11,348 nt of DNA from contig JAFXAV010000040.1 of the NCBI GenBank assembly GCA_017516785.1, forward strand, positions 1 to 11,348, written 5' to 3'. The stretch comes from Oscillospiraceae bacterium. GTDB lineage: Bacteria; Bacillota_A; Clostridia; Oscillospirales; Oscillospiraceae. Within the stretch, counting starts at the first letter, position 1, and each line of letters starts with the position of its first letter. Positions 3,196 through 11,348 of this stretch are shown here, in pieces. The notes beneath the pieces were generated by a model. It saw only the letters and a program-made list of their open reading frames with translations. It did not search any database and was not told the origin of the DNA. The translations under genes were made by a program, and so were the position numbers.

Positions 3196-4953
3196 TTATT
3201 CTTCCGGTTTATGCTCGGCGTTCAGTTCGTCCACCACGATATCCTTGTAGGGGTTGACGATGACCGTCCGGTAGGTGTGATAGATGACCATACCCGGCTT
3301 GGCGCCGGTGAGCTTTTTCACCTGCTTGACAGGGGTCACATCCACCGGGATGTTCTGACCGCCCATGGTCTCGGCGTAGTAGGCCGCCAGCTGGCAGGCC
3401 TGGGTAATGGTGTCGTCCGGGGGCGTGGTGCCGCCGCAGGAGATGATCACATGGGAGCCGTGAACCTTGGAGGCGTGGCACCAGATGTCGTCCTTCCGGG
3501 CCGCCTTGAAAGTCAGCTCGTCGTTCTGTTGGTTGTTCCGGCCCACATAGATGGGATAGCCGTCGGTGGACTCAAAGCGCATGGGCTTGGACTTTGCCTG
3601 CTTCATCTTCCGCTTTCCGGAATCGGCCTTCAGGTAGCCGCCGGACTGCAGCTCCTGGCGGATTTCCTCCAGCTCCGCTTCCGTTTCGGCCCGGTTCAGC
3701 TCCTCCAGAACGCTCTTTAAATAATGGAGCTCCTGCTCGCCCATAGTGATCTGCTTGGTCAGTTCCTTTTCGGCGGTTTTCAGCTTGGCGTAGTCCTTGT
3801 AGAATTTCGCCGCATTCTGCTGGGGGGACAGGATGGGGGAAATGGGAATGTCAATGACCTTCATTTCCTCATCGTAGAAGTCCTCACACTGAACCATGGT
3901 CTGGCCCTTCACGATTCTGTGGATATTGGCAGTGACGATGTCGCCCAGCTGGCGCAGCCGCTCCCGGTCGAAGGTGGCCACCAGTTCCTTTTCCTGAATG
4001 GCCAGCTTTCTGGTGATGCGCTGGCAGAGATTCTGAACGGTCTTTCGCACCGTCTGGCTCTTCTGGCGCATGGCGTCTTTCCGGTCCCGGACGGTGTAGT
4101 ACATGTCCAGCAGCGCCCCGAAGGAAGCGGCTTCCGTGAAGCTGCCGTACTGCCGGATGGGGCAGAAGGCAAACTGCTTGGGGGTGCCGTCGGGGAGGGC
4201 GTAGTAGTAAGGCTTCGGGTGATTCAGATGCTCGTGGAAGAAAAGGGCCAGCTTGTCAGCTGCAGCTTCTTCGTTGAGGTCTTCCACCCGGGTATCCACG
4301 CTTCCTGCCGCGAAGAGGGCAGCTTCCCGGCAGACCAGGGGAGAAAGGCCACCGATACAGTCCATCAGCCGCTCATGGAGCAAATCCCGCCCGATGTCCT
4401 GAAGCAGATTCTGATACTCTGCGGCAGTCCAGTCTGTGGCGTCCGCCTTGGTGATGGGTTCCGGCAGCTGATAGTTGAGGCCCGGGAGGGCGGCTCGCTT
4501 GGCGCTTTCGTCAAGGCCAATGCGCCGCAGGCAGTCAATGATCCGGCCCTCGGGGCTCAGCAGATACAGATTGCAGGTTCTGCCCATCAGCTCGGCAACC
4601 AGGGTTTTCTTTACATGGTCGCCCATCTCGTCGATACAGTCGAAGGTGAACATGGCGCAGCGCTCCATGGGAATCTGCTGCATCTCGATCAGCCGCGCGC
4701 CCAGCAGGTGCTTTCTCAGCAGCATGCAGAACATGGGAGGCTCCGGCGGATTTTCGGGGCTGGCGGTGGTCAGGTGGAGCCGGGGGGCGGTGGGATTCAG
4801 GGCGAAAAGCAGCTTTTCACGGCCTTCCCGGCATTTCAGTTGAATGATTACGGTATCCCGGCTGGGCTGATGGATCTTGTCCACCCGGGCATCGGCAGTG
4901 CGGGAGCGAATTTCACCCATCACGGCTGCCAGAAATGTTGCATCAAAGGCCAT
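3196..4953 (-). CDS. rqcH: RqcH/NFACT family ribosome quality-control protein (Rqc2/NEMF homologue)
   Basis: The family binds 50S subunits carrying a stalled peptidyl-tRNA and recruits tRNA-Ala to add C-terminal alanine tails that mark the chain for proteolysis; older annotation calls it fibronectin-binding protein. The 585 residues match the family length. NFACT-N begins MAFDATF; the motif LVAELMGRTCNLYLL follows, then a long helical coiled-coil middle, and an NFACT-R domain with GYPIYVGRNNQQNDELTFKA, DIWCHASKVHGSHVII and PGMVIYHTYRTVIVNP. The ATG at 4953 is chosen because GGAGG (4960-4964) lies 6 nt upstream and NFACT-N starts there; the open frame runs on to 5193 only by reading through a repeat element. 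At residues 97-98 the highly conserved Asp-Arg pair is Glu-Arg (codons GAG CGC). It lies downstream of mrnC on the same strand with about 280 bp of repeat DNA between. Confidence 0.95.
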   Translation of the reverse strand: MAFDATFLAAVMGEIRSRTADARVDKIHQPSRDTVIIQLKCREGREKLLFALNPTAPRLHLTTASPENPPEPPMFCMLLRKHLLGARLIEMQQIPMERCAMFTFDCIDEMGDHVKKTLVAELMGRTCNLYLLSPEGRIIDCLRRIGLDESAKRAALPGLNYQLPEPITKADATDWTAAEYQNLLQDIGRDLLHERLMDCIGGLSPLVCREAALFAAGSVDTRVEDLNEEAAADKLALFFHEHLNHPKPYYYALPDGTPKQFAFCPIRQYGSFTEAASFGALLDMYYTVRDRKDAMRQKSQTVRKTVQNLCQRITRKLAIQEKELVATFDRERLRQLGDIVTANIHRIVKGQTMVQCEDFYDEEMKVIDIPISPILSPQQNAAKFYKDYAKLKTAEKELTKQITMGEQELHYLKSVLEELNRAETEAELEEIRQELQSGGYLKADSGKRKMKQAKSKPMRFESTDGYPIYVGRNNQQNDELTFKAARKDDIWCHASKVHGSHVIISCGGTTPPDDTITQACQLAAYYAETMGGQNIPVDVTPVKQVKKLTGAKPGMVIYHTYRTVIVNPYKDIVVDELNAEHKPEE

Positions 4954-5015
4954 TGGTAACCTCCATAGGAAAAGACGAATTGCAGTTTGGCGAGCAGCTT
5001 GGTGGCGAAGCCACC

Positions 5016-5194
5016 CTTGGCCCCCTCTCTGAGGGGGCTGGCAAAAATCTTTGATTTTTGACTGGGGGAGTGTCGCATAATCGATAGGGCACTCCCTCCG
5101 TCTCGCCTTACGGCGAGCCACCTCACCCAAAGGGACTAAGCGTCCGTAAGCCGCGATGCGGCAACGGTCGCTAAGCCTCAGAGAGGGAGGCAAG
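5016..5194. repeat. Large palindromic repeat element, copy 1 (with 51-bp module)
   Basis: A 179-bp element with 19-bp terminal inverted repeats (5016-5034 and 5176-5194, 17 of 19 complementary). Inside are three hairpins: CAAAAATC/GATTTTTG (5042-5060), GGGAGTG/CACTCCC (5066-5096) and CTCGCC/GGCGAG (5102-5117). Then comes a 51-bp module (5125-5175) that is itself an imperfect hairpin. A further hairpin GGTGGC/GCCACC (5001-5015) flanks the left end and is shared with copy 3. Weaker inverted similarity around CAGTTTG near 4982-4988 and 5216-5222 suggests outer edges at about 4974 and 5232, so the whole gap between mrnC and rqcH may be element. It creates a spurious 80-codon in-frame extension upstream of rqcH. 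Other copies lie at 8140-8314 and 11193-11348. Confidence 0.85.
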
Positions 5195-5232
5195 TGGTAC
5201 GGTATAAACTCCCAGACAAACTGCTCTTTGTC

Positions 5233-7354: not shown

Positions 7355-7801
7355 ATGCAAGACACTGGCAATTACTATGTACTCAACCATTTGAAGCTGA
7401 TTACCGGACTGACAGACCGAACGCTCCGCAATTATCTCGCCTCCGGGATTTTGCAGGGAGAAAAGATCGATGGTCTTTGGCACTTCACGGCGGAGCAGGT
7501 GGAGGAATTCGTTCGCCATCCGGCAGTCCGGCCCAGCATCGTGGCGAAGAACCATGGAATTGTGTACGATTTCCTTCTGGATAACAAAAAGCAGGCAGAG
7601 GAAATCTGCATCATTCTGGACATGCCCGGCGCGAATCGGGCAGAAACGGCGGATTTTTTCTGCAGTCGTATCTGTGAGGGAGATTATCGGAACATACGGT
7701 TTGCGTTTGATGGTATTTCCTCCACATCCCGGGTGATTCTGCGGGGCAATACCGCCGATGTGCTGGGACTGGTTAATGCCTTCAAACAGAAAATGAAATA
7801 A
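7355..7801 (+). CDS. MerR-like helix-turn-helix protein with an unrecognised C-terminal domain
   Basis: A 148-residue protein. Residues 1-55 read as a MerR/excisionase-type winged helix: a recognition-helix pattern LTDRTLRNYLASGILQG, then a wing with GLWHFTAEQVEEFV. The rest (about 60-148) has no motif I recognise. It is alpha/beta in character with a conserved-looking SRVILRGNTADVLGLVNAF end, and could sense a ligand or serve as a dimer interface. The ATG is preceded by AAGGAG (7343-7348) at 6 nt. It has its own near-consensus promoter and a strong terminator, so it is monocistronic. It may regulate itself or one of the neighbouring genes; no operator can be assigned. DNA binding is a pattern-based inference. 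Confidence 0.75.
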   Translation: MQDTGNYYVLNHLKLITGLTDRTLRNYLASGILQGEKIDGLWHFTAEQVEEFVRHPAVRPSIVAKNHGIVYDFLLDNKKQAEEICIILDMPGANRAETADFFCSRICEGDYRNIRFAFDGISSTSRVILRGNTADVLGLVNAFKQKMK

Positions 7802-7846
7802 AGAATGCCTGCACAGCTTGGCTGTGCAGGCATTCTTCGCGTTTTT
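7801..7846. terminator. Bidirectional terminator with a 17-bp perfect stem
   Basis: A perfect 17-bp stem (7801-7817 with 7821-7837) and a TTG loop, lying between convergent genes. The last base of the plus-strand TAA stop is the first base of the stem. On the plus strand TTTTT follows four nt after the stem; on the minus strand a TTTATTTCATTTT tract follows directly. Both genes can use it. Confidence 0.93.
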
Positions 7847-8114
7847 AGAATCGGTAACCTGCGTCCAGAAGGCGCATCAGGGCCTCGTTGGCTTCCTCGT
7901 CGGTGAAGAGGCCGGTGAACCGCTTGTCCACCACCAGGGCCTCCAGGCTCAGCTTCAGCTGGCCCTTCTTGGCCAGATCGTTGAAGCCGTCGCTGAGACG
8001 GGTGCCGGAGAGGATCCGCTTGGCCTGTTTTAAGTCCAGGGGGCGCATCCGGATGCCCATGAGATTTGCCGCGGCCCGGTTACTTTCCCAGGCGGCGATG
8101 AATTTCTGTTCCAT
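7845..8114 (-). CDS. Small basic protein of unknown function (89 residues)
   Basis: I do not recognise this protein. It is a soluble-looking 89-residue product with no signal peptide or membrane segment. It has a polar helical N-terminus (AAWESNRAAANLMGIRMRPLDL), many Lys and Arg residues, and a helical C-terminus (FTDEEANEALMRLLDAGYRF). Coding status is supported by a strong ribosome binding site, GGAGGT (8121-8126) 6 nt before the ATG, and by a stop codon placed just ahead of the shared terminator. It follows hisS on the same strand, but a repeat element lies between them, and no separate promoter is evident. Confidence 0.8.
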   Translation of the reverse strand: MEQKFIAAWESNRAAANLMGIRMRPLDLKQAKRILSGTRLSDGFNDLAKKGQLKLSLEALVVDKRFTGLFTDEEANEALMRLLDAGYRF

Positions 8115-8139
8115 AGAATTACCTCCGTATCAGAAAACA

Positions 8140-8314
8140 CTTGGCCCCCTCGCTGAGGGGGCTGGCACAGCGAAAGCTGTGACTGGGGGAGTGTCGTAAA
8201 GTCGATAGGACACCCCCTCCGTCAGCCCTTCGGGCTGCCACCTCACCCAAAGGGACTAAGCGTCCGTAAGCCGCGATGCGGCAACGGTCGCTAAGCCTCA
8301 GAGAGGGAGGCAAG
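8140..8314. repeat. Large palindromic repeat element, copy 2 (with 51-bp module)
   Basis: A 175-bp element bounded by the same 19-bp inverted ends as copy 1 (8140-8158 and 8296-8314). The hairpin slots are conserved but two have a different sequence: CACAGC/GCTGTG (8166-8181, GAAA loop on the plus strand) replaces the CAAAAATC hairpin, and CAGCCC/GGGCTG (8223-8237) replaces CTCGCC/GGCGAG. The 51-bp module at 8245-8295 is identical to that of copy 1. It lies 8 nt after the hisS stop and ends 13 nt before the ribosome binding site of the 89-residue gene, in the same orientation relative to transcription as copy 1. Confidence 0.88.
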
Positions 8315-8322
8315 TTGGCGGT

Positions 8323-9681
8323 TTACTTTTCCAGAATCACAGGGCCGTTGTTGGCACTGAGGGCAGCCTTGATGTGAGCGGCAGCATCGGAAGGATTGAG
8401 CTTCACCTGCTCGCCGGTCACCATGTTCTTGACGGAGCAGACACCCTCGGCGATCTCGTCCTCACCCAGCAACACGGCGAAGGGAACGCCCAGCTTGTTG
8501 GCGTAGGTCATCTTCTGCTTGAACTTCTTCTGCTCGCCGTAGAGCTGAACCTTCAGACCTGCGCTTCTCAGGCTCTGGGCCAGAGCAATGGCGGGAGCGG
8601 GATCGGAGGTCATGGGCAGCACCAGAGCGTCAGCGGGAGCGCTGGGCAGCGCGGGATTCAGCAGCTTCTGCTCGTCCAGAACGTAGAACAGACGGGTCAG
8701 GCCGATGGAAATACCCACGCCGGGCAGCTGCTTTTCAATGTAGTAGCCCGCCAGGTTGTCGTAGCGGCCGCCGGAGCAGACGGAGCCGATTTCGGGATGA
8801 TCAAGCAATGTGGTCTCGTAAACGGTGCCGGTGTAGTAGTCCAGGCCTCTTGCGATGGTCAGGTCAACGGCAAAGTTCTCTTCGGGAACGCCGAAAGCGG
8901 CCAGATTCACGGTGACAGCCTTCAGTTCAGCGAGGCCCAGATCGAAGATCTCGTTGCGGCCTGCGTAGCCTTCCAGAGCGGCAAGGACTTCTGCATTGGT
9001 GCCGGTGATGGCGATGAACTTCAGAATTTCATCAGCCTGGGTCTCAGTCAGGCCGCACTCTTCGCCCATCAGGATGGCCTTGACCTTCTCGGTACCGATC
9101 TTATCCAGTTTGTCCACGGTGCGCATGATTTCGCCGGACTTTTCGGAAAGCTCCATCATGGCGTAGAAGCCGTTGAGGATCTTGCGGTTGTTGACCCGGA
9201 TCTGGAAACGGCTCAGGCCGAAGCCCTTGAAGACGTTGTAGATGATGGCGGGGATCTCGGCCTCGTTCAGAATATCCAGCTTGCCGTCGCCGATGATGTC
9301 GATGTCGGCCTGGTAGAACTCACGGAAGCGGCCGCGCTGTGCCCGCTCACCACGGTAGACCTTGGAGATCTGGAAGCGGCGGAAGGGGAAGGCCAGGTCA
9401 TTGCAGTGCAGGGCAACGTACTTTGCCAGAGGCACGGTCAGGTCGAAGCGCAGGGCCAGATCGGAGTCGCCCTTCTGGAAGCGGTAGATCTGCTTTTCGG
9501 TGTCGCCGCCGCCCTTGGCAAGCAATATCTGGGCATCCTCGATCACAGGGGTGTCCAGGGGGGCGAAGCCGTAGGAGGAGTAGGTATTGCGGAGGATTTC
9601 AACCATCCGCTCGAACTGAATCTGCTTGGCCGGCAGCAGTTCCATGAAACCGGACAGAGTCCGGGGCTTAATGATGTCCAT
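8323..9681 (-). CDS. hisS: Histidine--tRNA ligase
   Basis: Class II aminoacyl-tRNA synthetase that charges tRNA-His in the cytosol. In the 452 residues: LRFDLTVPLAKY (77-88), motif 2 with VYRGERAQRGRFREFYQADIDIIG (108-131), the HisRS-specific ARGLDYYTGTVYE (277-289, with the catalytic Arg278), the second signature SGGRYDNL (303-310), motif 3 GVGISIGLTRL (321-331), and an anticodon-binding domain from about residue 350. The MDIIKPRTLSGFMELLP start marks it as the HisRS subgroup that is somewhat longer than the Escherichia coli type. The ATG has AAAGGAA about 9 nt upstream. No T-box leader is visible; a palindromic repeat fills the gap to the upstream mgsA-family gene, with which it is probably co-transcribed. 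Confidence 0.97.
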   Translation of the reverse strand: MDIIKPRTLSGFMELLPAKQIQFERMVEILRNTYSSYGFAPLDTPVIEDAQILLAKGGGDTEKQIYRFQKGDSDLALRFDLTVPLAKYVALHCNDLAFPFRRFQISKVYRGERAQRGRFREFYQADIDIIGDGKLDILNEAEIPAIIYNVFKGFGLSRFQIRVNNRKILNGFYAMMELSEKSGEIMRTVDKLDKIGTEKVKAILMGEECGLTETQADEILKFIAITGTNAEVLAALEGYAGRNEIFDLGLAELKAVTVNLAAFGVPEENFAVDLTIARGLDYYTGTVYETTLLDHPEIGSVCSGGRYDNLAGYYIEKQLPGVGISIGLTRLFYVLDEQKLLNPALPSAPADALVLPMTSDPAPAIALAQSLRSAGLKVQLYGEQKKFKQKMTYANKLGVPFAVLLGEDEIAEGVCSVKNMVTGEQVKLNPSDAAAHIKAALSANNGPVILEK

Positions 9682-9708
9682 GTATCTAAATTCCTTTCAG
9701 GATATTGG

Positions 9709-9796
9709 TAATGCAAAATTCAAAATGCAAAATGCATAATTGCTGTATCCGGTTTCCGGACATTTTGCATTCTGCATTCTGCATTTTGCATTCAGT
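9709..9796. repeat. TGCAAAA-type palindromic (MITE-like) repeat, copy B
   Basis: A near-perfect palindrome: a 34-nt left arm (9709-9742) and 34-nt right arm (9761-9794), pairing at roughly 29 of 33 aligned positions, around a central TCCGG/CCGGA hairpin (9748-9760). The arms are runs of AATGCAAA-like units in inverted orientation. The family is the same as at 1115-1233, but this copy is shorter because it has one central hairpin rather than two. It lies between the mgsA-family stop codon and hisS, so it would form a long stem in the shared mRNA. Confidence 0.85.
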
Positions 9797-9800
9797 TTTC

Positions 9801-10214
9801 TCAGAATCTGGGCTTGGTATGGAGCATTTCTCTCCAGTCCAGATCGCCCCGCTGCAGACCCATGATGGACATTTCGGCGGAGGCCAGGTTGGTGGCGATG
9901 GGCACATTGTGCTTGTCGCAGTGCCGGATGGTTTCGATCATCTGGGCATCATCCCAGGGATCGGTGGTATTGGGGTCGGTAAACAGAAGCACCAGGTCGA
10001 TCTCATTGTAGGCGATGCGGGCGTTGATCTGCTGGTGGCCGCCCTGCTTGTGGGAAAGCAGCAGGGTGATGGGCAGACCCGTGTTGTCCGCGATCAGGCG
10101 GCCGGTGGTGGCCGTTGCAAAGAGATTGTGCTTCATGAGAACGCTTTTATAGGCAGTGCAGAACTGAACCATCAGTTCCTTTTTCTTGTCATGGGCCAGA
10201 AATGCGATATTCAC
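9801..10214 (-). CDS. mgsA: Methylglyoxal synthase family protein with altered active site
   Basis: A 137-residue, single-domain MGS-fold protein. Methylglyoxal synthase turns dihydroxyacetone phosphate into methylglyoxal and phosphate. Family features kept are IAFLAHDKKKELM (His8, Asp9, Lys12), ATATTGRLI for phosphate binding (ATGTTG in active enzymes), Asp80-Pro81, and NVPIATNLASAE. The residues matching the E. coli catalytic set are changed: Asp71 is His60 (GGHQQ instead of GGDQQ), His98 is Trp87 and Asp101 is Ala90. The usual SGP segment reads SHK. Synthase activity is therefore doubtful; a ligand-sensing or structural role is possible. The GTG start has AAGGAG about 9 nt upstream, and the gene begins 24 nt after minD, so the two form an operon. 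The symbol names the family, not a proven activity. Confidence 0.85.
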   Translation of the reverse strand: MNIAFLAHDKKKELMVQFCTAYKSVLMKHNLFATATTGRLIADNTGLPITLLLSHKQGGHQQINARIAYNEIDLVLLFTDPNTTDPWDDAQMIETIRHCDKHNVPIATNLASAEMSIMGLQRGDLDWREMLHTKPRF

Positions 10215-10238
10215 AACATCTCACTCCTTACTGATATA

Positions 10239-10979
10239 TCACCGGAGAGCGATAGGCTCCGGAAGTCCTTGAATTCGTCTGGCAATGCGCCGGAAAGCCT
10301 TGGCGGCAGCGCAGCGCCTGCGGTAGTGAAGCAGGGGATGGCCGAAGGTGGCGGCGAGGGTCATGTTCAGATCCTCAGGGATCACGCCCAGCAGCGGCAG
10401 TCCTGCGGTGTCCATCACATCGTCCACGGTCACGTCGGTGGCGTTGACCATCTTCCGGCTGACACGGTTGACGATGAGACGGATGTTGGTTTTTCCCATG
10501 AGCTCCAGAAGATCGCCCACCCGGGCGGCATCCCGGATGGCGGCGGGACCGGGGCCAGTTACCAGAATGCAACGGTCGGCGTAGCTTGCGGTGAGCCGGA
10601 AACCGGCTTCCACTCCCGCGGGGGCATCCAGGAAGATGTAGTCAAATTCCTTCCGGGCGGCGAGCATCAGCTGGCCGAAAGCGATTGTGTCAATGGATGC
10701 GGCGGGGCAATTCATGGGAGCGGTGAGGAAATGGAGGTTTTGAACGGAAGGATGGGATGCGGCCTGGGGCAGCAGCTTTTCCTCCGGATTCACTTCCAGG
10801 AAGGACAGGGCGCCGCAGTCGGACATTCCCAATGAGATATCCAGATTCCGCAGACCCACATCGCAGTCGATGCAGAGCACCTTTTTTCCCGCGGCGGCCA
10901 GAGCGGTGGTAATACCGGCGCAGACCGAAGTTTTTCCTGTTCCGCCCTTGCCGGACAGAACTGCGATCAATTCACCCAC
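10239..10979 (-). CDS. minD: Septum site-determining ATPase MinD
   Basis: Peripheral-membrane ATPase that positions the division septum by recruiting MinC. The 246 residues show the deviant Walker A SGKGGTGKTS (9-18, with Lys11 and Lys16), switch I DCDVGLRNLDISLG (Asp40), and Walker B/switch II FLDAPAGVE (Asp118). A basic, potentially amphipathic C-terminal helix (AKAFRRIARRIQGL) could serve as the membrane anchor. The GTG at 10979 is chosen: AAGGAG (10988-10993) lies 8 nt upstream and the product begins MGELIAVLSGKGG as MinD proteins do; the longer open frame runs through the promoter and a repeat. It is followed by the mgsA-family gene rather than minE, and repeat DNA rather than minC lies upstream, although minD and mgsA are neighbours in many Clostridia. 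Confidence 0.94.
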   Translation of the reverse strand: MGELIAVLSGKGGTGKTSVCAGITTALAAAGKKVLCIDCDVGLRNLDISLGMSDCGALSFLEVNPEEKLLPQAASHPSVQNLHFLTAPMNCPAASIDTIAFGQLMLAARKEFDYIFLDAPAGVEAGFRLTASYADRCILVTGPGPAAIRDAARVGDLLELMGKTNIRLIVNRVSRKMVNATDVTVDDVMDTAGLPLLGVIPEDLNMTLAATFGHPLLHYRRRCAAAKAFRRIARRIQGLPEPIALR

Positions 10980-11012
10980 AGGGCAGACTCCTTCCATATA
11001 CCATATGGGTTC

Positions 11013-11041: not shown

Positions 11042-11192
11042 GGGGAAATCCAGGATTTTCCAAAGATTTTTCATCAGAATTAACAAAAGCATGAATATGG
11101 GAACGTTTCCATCTGTCATATCGCGATTTTGAGACAGAAGGAAAAGGCACCCCCGGAGAGAAACCGTTTGCACAGGTTCTCGCCGGACAGAT
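11042..11192. other. Gene-free stretch upstream of the minD promoter
   Basis: No convincing coding frame or RNA gene is visible. The only structured site is the 14-bp near-palindrome TGGGAACGTTTCCA at 11098-11111, which looks like a LacI/CcpA-type operator, with one mismatch to the cre pattern TGNAANCGNWNNCA. It lies about 57 bp upstream of the minD -35 box, and no gene can be tied to it. Confidence 0.4.
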
Positions 11193-11348
11193 AAATTGCA
11201 GTTTGTAGAGCTGTTTGGTGGCGAAGCCACCCTCGGCCCCCTCTTTGAGGGGGCTGGCAAAAATCTCTGATTTTTGACTGGGGGAGTGTCGTAAAGTCGA
11301 TAGGACACTCCCTCCGTCAGCCCTTCGGGCTGCCACCTCCCTCAGAGA
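11193..11348. repeat. Large palindromic repeat element, copy 3 (short form, cut by window end)
   Basis: It shares with copy 1 the left flank (AAATTGCAGTTTG from 11193), the GGTGGC/GCCACC hairpin (11217-11231) and the left terminal repeat (11232-11250). The hairpins CAAAAATC/GATTTTTG (11258-11276), GGGAGTG/CACTCCC and CAGCCC/GGGCTG follow. The 51-bp module present in copies 1 and 2 is absent: the sequence goes directly from GCCACCTC (11332-11339) to CCTCAGAGA (11340-11348), where the window ends. Orientation relative to the downstream minus-strand gene (minD) matches the other copies. Confidence 0.85.

Follow-up and report, generated by a model that had tools for sequence, protein, structure and literature searches.

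What does a methylglyoxal synthase (MGS) homologue do when the residues of its active site have been exchanged and its gene lies directly behind one for a MinD-like ATPase? The question is raised by a contig of an Oscillospiraceae bacterium of the gut (JAFXAV010000040.1, 11,348 nucleotides, called the window here), whose minus strand, a detail that a preliminary description of the locus did not give, carries such an MGS-like gene. Tentatively, and at slightly short of an even chance, we favor the answer that its product no longer catalyzes but acts together with an orphan MinD ATPase and probably binds a phosphorylated metabolite, judging from sequence comparisons. The protein matches the Pfam MGS domain (2.7e-11), and its score of 114.8 bits passes the cut-off of the equivalog family NF003559 (84) and misses that of TIGR00160 (146.9). 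Comparison with solved structures and a ranking of folds confirmed the MGS fold. The fold ranking also ruled out a fragment of PurH or CarB, and an RNA feature at the locus was ruled out, with no Rfam match at gathering thresholds.

Alignment of the window protein with solved MgsA proteins (HMMER) bore out three exchanges named in the preliminary description: GGDQQ has become GGHQQ, SGP has become SHK, and in the phosphate loop TGTTG has become TATTG, with Ala35 for the glycine. In addition, PHEPD reads PWDDAQ. None of Asp71, His98, and Asp101 of E. coli MgsA is retained under any of the alignments considered here. The preliminary description had put Trp87 and Ala90 at the last two positions; neither His nor Asp remains there, but the assignment of Ala90 gave way. 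Loop D80-C99 exceeds that of classical MgsA by one residue, and because of this extra residue Asp101 aligns with Gln91 (HMMER, gapped) rather than with Ala90, its counterpart only in an ungapped alignment, while the counterpart of His98 is Trp87 (HMMER), or Asp88 if the helix register is ungapped. In the 86-sequence clade alignment described below, Gln91 is conserved in 83 sequences, and position 90 is variable (S in 52, A in 23, Q in 4, N in 3, and four others). All three positions called catalytic in that description are replaced, but not all three are catalytic in the same sense: in the available part of the work on the C. difficile enzyme, Asp71 is the catalytic base and His98 is catalytic but accessory or conformational (PMC7843640), and the available part of another paper classes H19, D71, and H98 as catalytic and D91 and D101 as substrate recognition (PMC1877815). 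The former source, as far as available, also assigns G66-P67 to the loop covering C1-C2 of dihydroxyacetone phosphate (DHAP), and the assayed C. difficile enzyme shares the numbering of the window protein (D60, H8, H87, G55, K12, S54, and T34-G38) (PMC7843640).

In fold, length, and phosphate site the window protein resembles MgsA of B. subtilis (6f2c), E. coli (1b93/1egh), and C. difficile (PMC7843640): side chains K23, T45, T47, T48, and S65 are retained as K12, T34, T36, T37, and S54, and H8, D9, and D80 are kept as well. It differs from them at Asp71, His98, Asp101, Gly66, Pro67, and Gly46 and in the additional loop residue, and it adds its gene position after a minD-like gene and a C-terminal RGDLDWR, which conforms to the RGD[LF]xWR signature of the min-cluster lineage. 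This ending (RGDLDWRE) had been taken for the C terminus of the MgsA family at large; it is instead the ending of this lineage and is absent from all 30 classical copies of Clostridia (L111-L140), although similar tails are present in MgsA of Bacilli.

The exchanges are neither errors nor signs of decay. Relatives were retrieved with six peptide patterns taken from the window protein. To the best 80 of 566 loci (84-99% identity) the window copy and five remoter members were added, which gave the clade alignment (n = 86). The 80-locus set is biased towards GGHQQ because one of the six patterns contains it. The titles of these loci name Oscillospiraceae, Faecousia, Clostridia, Clostridiales/Eubacteriales, or just Bacillota or bacterium, and one locus comes from an isolate, Pseudoflavonifractor sp. 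MSJ-30 (L035, 93% identity). His60, Gln61, Gln62, H8, D9, K12, T34, A35, and T37 are invariant in all 86 sequences, and Trp87 is kept in 82. The string LSHKQGGHQQ occurs in 115 of 121 collected proteins and LSHKQGGHHQ in one, the pattern being unmatched in five, including the plus-strand translation P0001. The ratio of nonsynonymous to synonymous substitution rates (dN/dS) has a median of 0.075 (pairwise NG86; 797 pairs with dS of 0.1-1.2 from 1500 drawn), by which measure the clade is under strong purifying selection. Sequencing error and gene decay are ruled out by His60 in 86/86, the 80 homologous loci, and the low dN/dS; an error confined to one assembly had been named in the preliminary description as what would overturn it, and its view of the gene as not decaying holds across the clade.

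A second, intact mgsA, for which that description had advised looking, is ruled out for 29 of 30 genomes drawn from those of the 80 loci, where the window-type gene is the only MGS-like gene; G016, the one exception, carries a pair of window-type copies. This genome is metagenome assembled, and its two different variant copies lie on two contigs (L029 and L040), which points to a mixed bin or a true duplication. That the protein is still a methylglyoxal synthase, weak or active through other residues (e.g., Asp88/Asp89 or His60 as the base), would agree with this sole-copy state, with the passed NF003559 cut-off, with the retained H8, D9, D80, and phosphate site, and with the merely accessory role given to His98 in the accessible portion of the C. 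difficile study (PMC7843640), but the base Asp71 is replaced in 86/86 clade sequences, G66-P67 and the position of Asp101 are altered, and the TIGR00160 cut-off is missed, and we regard this explanation as very unlikely.

Within the clade, mean entropy is 0.05 at the pocket positions as far as residue 80, compared with 0.35 over all sites, so that in this clade the pocket is, on the aligned sequences, re-set and frozen, not eroded. Near-invariance of this kind, together with the joint fixation of A35, H55, K56, H60, and W87, is what leads to the main rival, a new enzyme whose H8/D9/H55/H60/D80/W87 pocket would catalyze some other conversion of a small phosphorylated compound, the minD neighborhood being historical. 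We consider it unlikely.

To place the clade, an even sample of 107 genomes was used that was centered on the genome of MSJ-30 (G014) and covered its order, presumably Oscillospirales from its members, under a nominal completeness filter of 90; earlier locus sets (L141-L250) were biased towards window-like sequences. The MGS lineage of the window is present in 105 of the 107 genomes. Residues were counted at fixed offsets from the aligned start with no realignment, and position 60 was read by pattern; two separate readings disagree for a few ambiguous rows. Asp71, His98, and Asp101 are all kept in only 12/105, and Asp71 in 50/105. Where position 60 is not Asp, it is E in 17 genomes, A in 8, S in 6, G and I in 5 each, N in 3, H, T, and M in 2 each, and L in 1, with 4 unclear. 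The phosphate site fares differently, K12 being retained in 104, T37 in 103, and T34 in 102 genomes, and D9 in 97. A tree of MGS and MinD columns from which the catalytic columns had been removed (112 rows, LG+G4, a quick run with long-branch warnings) returned the window clade (9 rows) as one branch (SH-aLRT 100), in support of the conserved GGHQQ clade that the preliminary description had suggested looking for. The state Asp versus not-Asp at position 60, counted without the four rows with an unclear residue, requires at least 15 changes on this tree. Repeated alteration of the base with a mostly retained phosphate site is the pattern expected if selection keeps binding and not catalysis. 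As read from these sequences, catalytic replacement is an order-wide tendency of the min-cluster MGS lineage, wider than the window clade.

The same counts weaken the case for a new enzyme, as position 60 across the order (D, E, A, S, G, I, N, H, T, M, or L) offers no single new constellation and yet the gene and its pairing persist; flanking open reading frame (ORF) clusters, inspected by eye and free of family annotation, showed no recurrent metabolic neighbor. An additional full-length match of the classical MGS type was found in 12/105 genomes and a short fragment match in a thirteenth (G378), and in none of those 12 does the min-linked copy have the full triad. Apart from this, two loci (L391 and L393) have a rewritten phosphate loop (SSSALG and SASALG at 33-38), with GG changed to SA or GA, in an open frame.

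That the gene is kept with minD, as the preliminary description had proposed, was confirmed: in 98 of the 105 order-sample loci, a minD-like gene of the same orientation precedes the MGS gene by at most 600 bp. In a larger, partly redundant set with flanks of partly 1.5 kb (some locus sets extend only ~1.5 kb past the match, and some genes carry two locus ids), it lies upstream in 189 of the 197 loci with an RGDLDWR-type tail and in 0/54 without. Intergenic distances range from -4 to 237 bp, with 24 bp in the window. The two order-sample genomes without the MGS gene comprise one with MinD (G340) and one lacking both (G341). The MinD-like protein of the window has a deviant Walker A motif (GKGGTGKTS), CDVGLRNLD, and DAPAG, and its best solved-structure match is MinD (4v03, 1.5e-40). 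It stays below the TIGR01968 cut-off (194.6 versus 212.9 bits), which is passed in 17/107 order genomes, compared with 19/24 control Clostridia, where MinD scores 390-422 bits. With numbering on what we take to be the E. coli MinD sequence, the MinD-like proteins encoded next to MGS in the order sample (n = 98), a set apart from the window copy, keep K11 and K16 in 96, D40 in 97, and D120 in all 98 cases. At position 154, 19/19 controls have Asp, and the order has mostly E (42), Q (20), or A (19).

The usual partners of this ATPase were not found. Among 117 order genomes, which do not include that of the window, no MinE and no MinC scored over the cut-off, with three and six weak matches, respectively, inside long frames; 19/24 control Clostridia had MinC and 19/24 had MinE, the same five controls being without MinD, MinC, and MinE. 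The tail is changed as well. In 186 of 189 MinD-like proteins (a set that includes the window copy and some genes twice), 3-16 residues follow the glycine of RLxGE, with 20-21 in the other three, compared with 21-28 in 19/19 controls, whose ends resemble MinD membrane helices. By this comparison of tail lengths, the usual C-terminal membrane-targeting helix was not found in the window protein; MinD bears a C-terminal amphipathic helix according to the available text of PMC4429545. Set against MinCDE of Clostridia, as described in the accessible part of PMC4905992, the neighbor is MinD-like in its Walker A lysines, D40, and D120 and differs in its tail, in its score, and in the missing MinC and MinE. 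This loss of partners and usual membrane tail, like the order-wide tendency of MGS, had escaped the preliminary description.

Such a pairing could also be inherited passively, if the protein were a pseudoenzyme whose function has nothing to do with MinD and whose gene stands beside minD only because an old mreB...minCDE...mgsA cluster stayed unbroken. Other genes are indeed commonly linked, with a hisS-like ORF downstream on the same strand in at least 73/105 loci (a lower bound, from short flanks) and a PBP2-like ORF upstream in at least 41 of the 91 loci having 1500 or more bases upstream (also a lower bound); one locus (L286), read by eye, has the order maf-mreB-mreC-mreD-PBP2-minD-MGS-hisS, and 5/105 genomes have the MGS gene without a MinD-like gene. 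However, the minD pairing exceeds both of these minimum counts, the ORF list of a window-type locus (L008) shows no PBP2 by reading, no PBP2 search having been made there, and minC and minE vanished while minD and MGS were both retained. We judge this explanation quite unlikely. Five loci in which the MGS-like gene is kept without a match of MinD-like score (L217, L361, L377, L378, and L389) offer natural tests of how obligate the pair is. Long open frames had hinted at a natural MinD-MGS fusion, a candidate that was dropped when the loci (L281 in G174 and L282 in G377) proved to hold separate genes.

In other Clostridia, an MGS paralogue comes after minC-minD-minE. From a class sample likewise centered on G014, under the same nominal completeness filter, 64 loci were opened that were picked, not random. 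MGS directly follows minE in 34 of these (28 with a changed triad and 6 intact) and is separated from it by ~1 kb in 9 (4 changed and 5 intact); it directly follows minD in 11 (7 changed and 4 intact) and lies farther from minD in 1 (intact), and no min gene was seen near MGS in the remaining 9 opened loci (6 changed and 3 intact). Twelve two-copy genomes combine a classical MgsA that has GGD and HDxD (L114, L121-L127, L130, L131, L138, and L139) with a min-linked one in which GGDQQ is altered (L440-L448 and L451-L453). In five further two-copy genomes (G222, G187, G053, G250, and G096), no min gene was seen within the stretches examined; in G284 the examined copy is min-linked and changed. 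Judging from these min-linked and two-copy loci, the MGS gene was most likely already a member of the min cluster when the order of the window lost minC and minE, and catalysis is most likely dispensable for min-linked copies. The motifs that replace GGDQQ in post-minE paralogues include GHLGEEQ, GSLGAQQ, GKLGEQQ, and similar ones, and a shortened GLMGEQQ occurs in Acetivibrio saccincola, A. straminisolvens, and A. mesophilus. As a separate observation, genes directly after minE and without GGDQQ in Clostridia of the MinCDE type are found at L440-L447, L452, L453, L460, L461, L463-L469, and L473.

The preliminary description had inferred a non-catalytic sensor or regulator, or else an enzyme with a new reaction; each of these is a candidate here. 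On the reading that we favor, that of a non-catalytic MinD partner, the window protein belongs to an MGS lineage whose genes are part of the clostridial min cluster. It has most likely lost the known synthase reaction, with the base Asp71 changed to His and His98 and Asp101 gone. What it keeps is the fold of MgsA and the side chains that bind phosphate, and H55, K56, H60, and W87 make up a new pocket that is fixed. It would bind a phosphorylated metabolite without turnover, DHAP or phosphate being the obvious candidates, and this binding would control, or be coupled to, the neighboring MinD-like ATPase, with which it may be in contact. The ATPase itself, now without MinC, MinE, or a membrane tail, would be soluble, and the pair may help to control division or cell shape. 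For ligand binding by such a fold there is a precedent in the MGS domain of carbamoyl-phosphate synthetase, which is non-catalytic; this domain and that of PurH (IMP cyclohydrolase) have the fold of the window protein, and for carbamoyl-phosphate synthetase a PDB title among the fold matches names IMP as an allosteric ligand. A precedent for MgsA touching a regulatory protein is B. subtilis MgsA, which is regulated by Crh, as named in the available part of PMC10714963, but there MgsA is an active enzyme and the regulated party.

Several points weigh against this interpretation. The lack of synthase activity, the ligand binding, and the interaction with MinD are all predictions from sequence. 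The site is intact in 16 of the 55 picked min-linked loci and in the 12/105 order-sample copies given above, and because intact min-linked copies exist, min linkage does not require catalytic loss. Since H8 and T36 are partly lost (kept in 84/105 and 81/105), ligand binding may not be general in the order, and in the window clade a pocket more conserved than average fits a new enzyme too. Five of the 105 genomes (G392, G258, G365, G387, and G323) have the MGS gene without a match of MinD-like score, and in two (G414 and G333) MinD is 3-4 kb off on the other strand. The pair may be a leftover of an old gene order, given that PBP2-like and hisS-like genes are also often linked. A correlation of MGS and MinD distances beyond that with HisS had 20 usable genomes and decides nothing, and the RGDLDWR tail was dropped as a signature of MinD binding, as Bacilli MgsA bear similar tails.

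Doubtful, and broader, is the proposal that min-cluster MGS is an unrecognized Min component of Clostridia, which would have been at first a moonlighting enzyme beside MinCDE and then repeatedly stripped of catalysis; in the order only a tail-less MinD and an MGS-fold partner would be left, passing the glycolytic state (bound triose phosphate or phosphate) to a division or shape ATPase. If this is so, gut bacteria have on many parallel occasions converted a textbook family of enzymes into division-ATPase partners that no longer catalyze, and in the order many genes annotated as "methylglyoxal synthase" would mislead predictions of methylglyoxal production. It would also reveal what MinD does after losing MinC, MinE, and its membrane tail and would give a direct handle on the coupling of metabolism and division. 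The titles, abstract openings, and text passages surveyed, a set with subscription papers mostly outside it, do not describe a min-linked or catalytically changed MGS, and the main text of the C. difficile Min paper mentions neither methylglyoxal nor mgsA nor rodA (PMC4905992). The features of the locus are listed in Table 1.

Table 1. Coordinates of the MGS-like gene, its altered residues, and its neighbors in the window
Feature	Position	Strand	Basis and remarks
MGS-like coding sequence, 137 aa, GTG start	9801..10214 (GTG 10214 to stop 9801)	minus	ORF list, Pfam, NF003559/TIGR00160
Ribosome-binding-site-like AAGGAG before the MGS-like gene	10224..10229	minus	Sequence; nine bases ahead of start
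His60, codon CAC (Asp71 of E. coli MgsA)	10035..10037	minus	Alignment; H in 86/86 clade rows
His55-Lys56 (Gly66-Pro67 of E. coli MgsA)	10047..10052	minus	Alignment; H55 85/86, K56 82/86
Ala35 in phosphate loop TATTG (Gly46)	10110..10112	minus	Alignment; 86/86 clade rows
Trp87-Asp-Asp-Ala-Gln91 loop in place of His98...Asp101, one residue longer	9942..9956	minus	Alignment, conservation
C-terminal RGDLDWR motif of the min-linked lineage, residues 122-128	9831..9851	minus	Lineage comparison
minD-like coding sequence, 246 aa, probable GTG start	10239..10979	minus	ORF list, TIGR01968, structure match; 24 bp before the MGS-like gene
Ribosome-binding-site-like AAGGAG before the minD-like gene	10988..10993	minus	Sequence
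hisS-like gene, downstream	8323..9681	minus	Named by reading; no family search made

Upstream of minD, GroES-like and GroEL-like ORFs recur in a minority of loci (L008 at 4639-4929 and ~30 more, by eye). Two small ORFs of the window, 7845-8114 (minus strand, 89 aa) and 7355-7801 (plus strand, 148 aa), are putatively coding and had no Pfam family. Repeats of one family (GGGGGAGTGTCGTAAAGTCGATAGG... with CCCTCTCTGAGGGGG) are scattered between genes at 4973-5195, 8137-8315, and 11189-11347, near the NFACT gene, hisS, and minD, with units 71-95% alike. A second repeat type, built on AATGCAAAATGC and with inverted arms, is located at 1110-1166 and 9704-9801, that is, near dnaK-like and grpE-like genes (named by reading) and in the gap between MGS and hisS.
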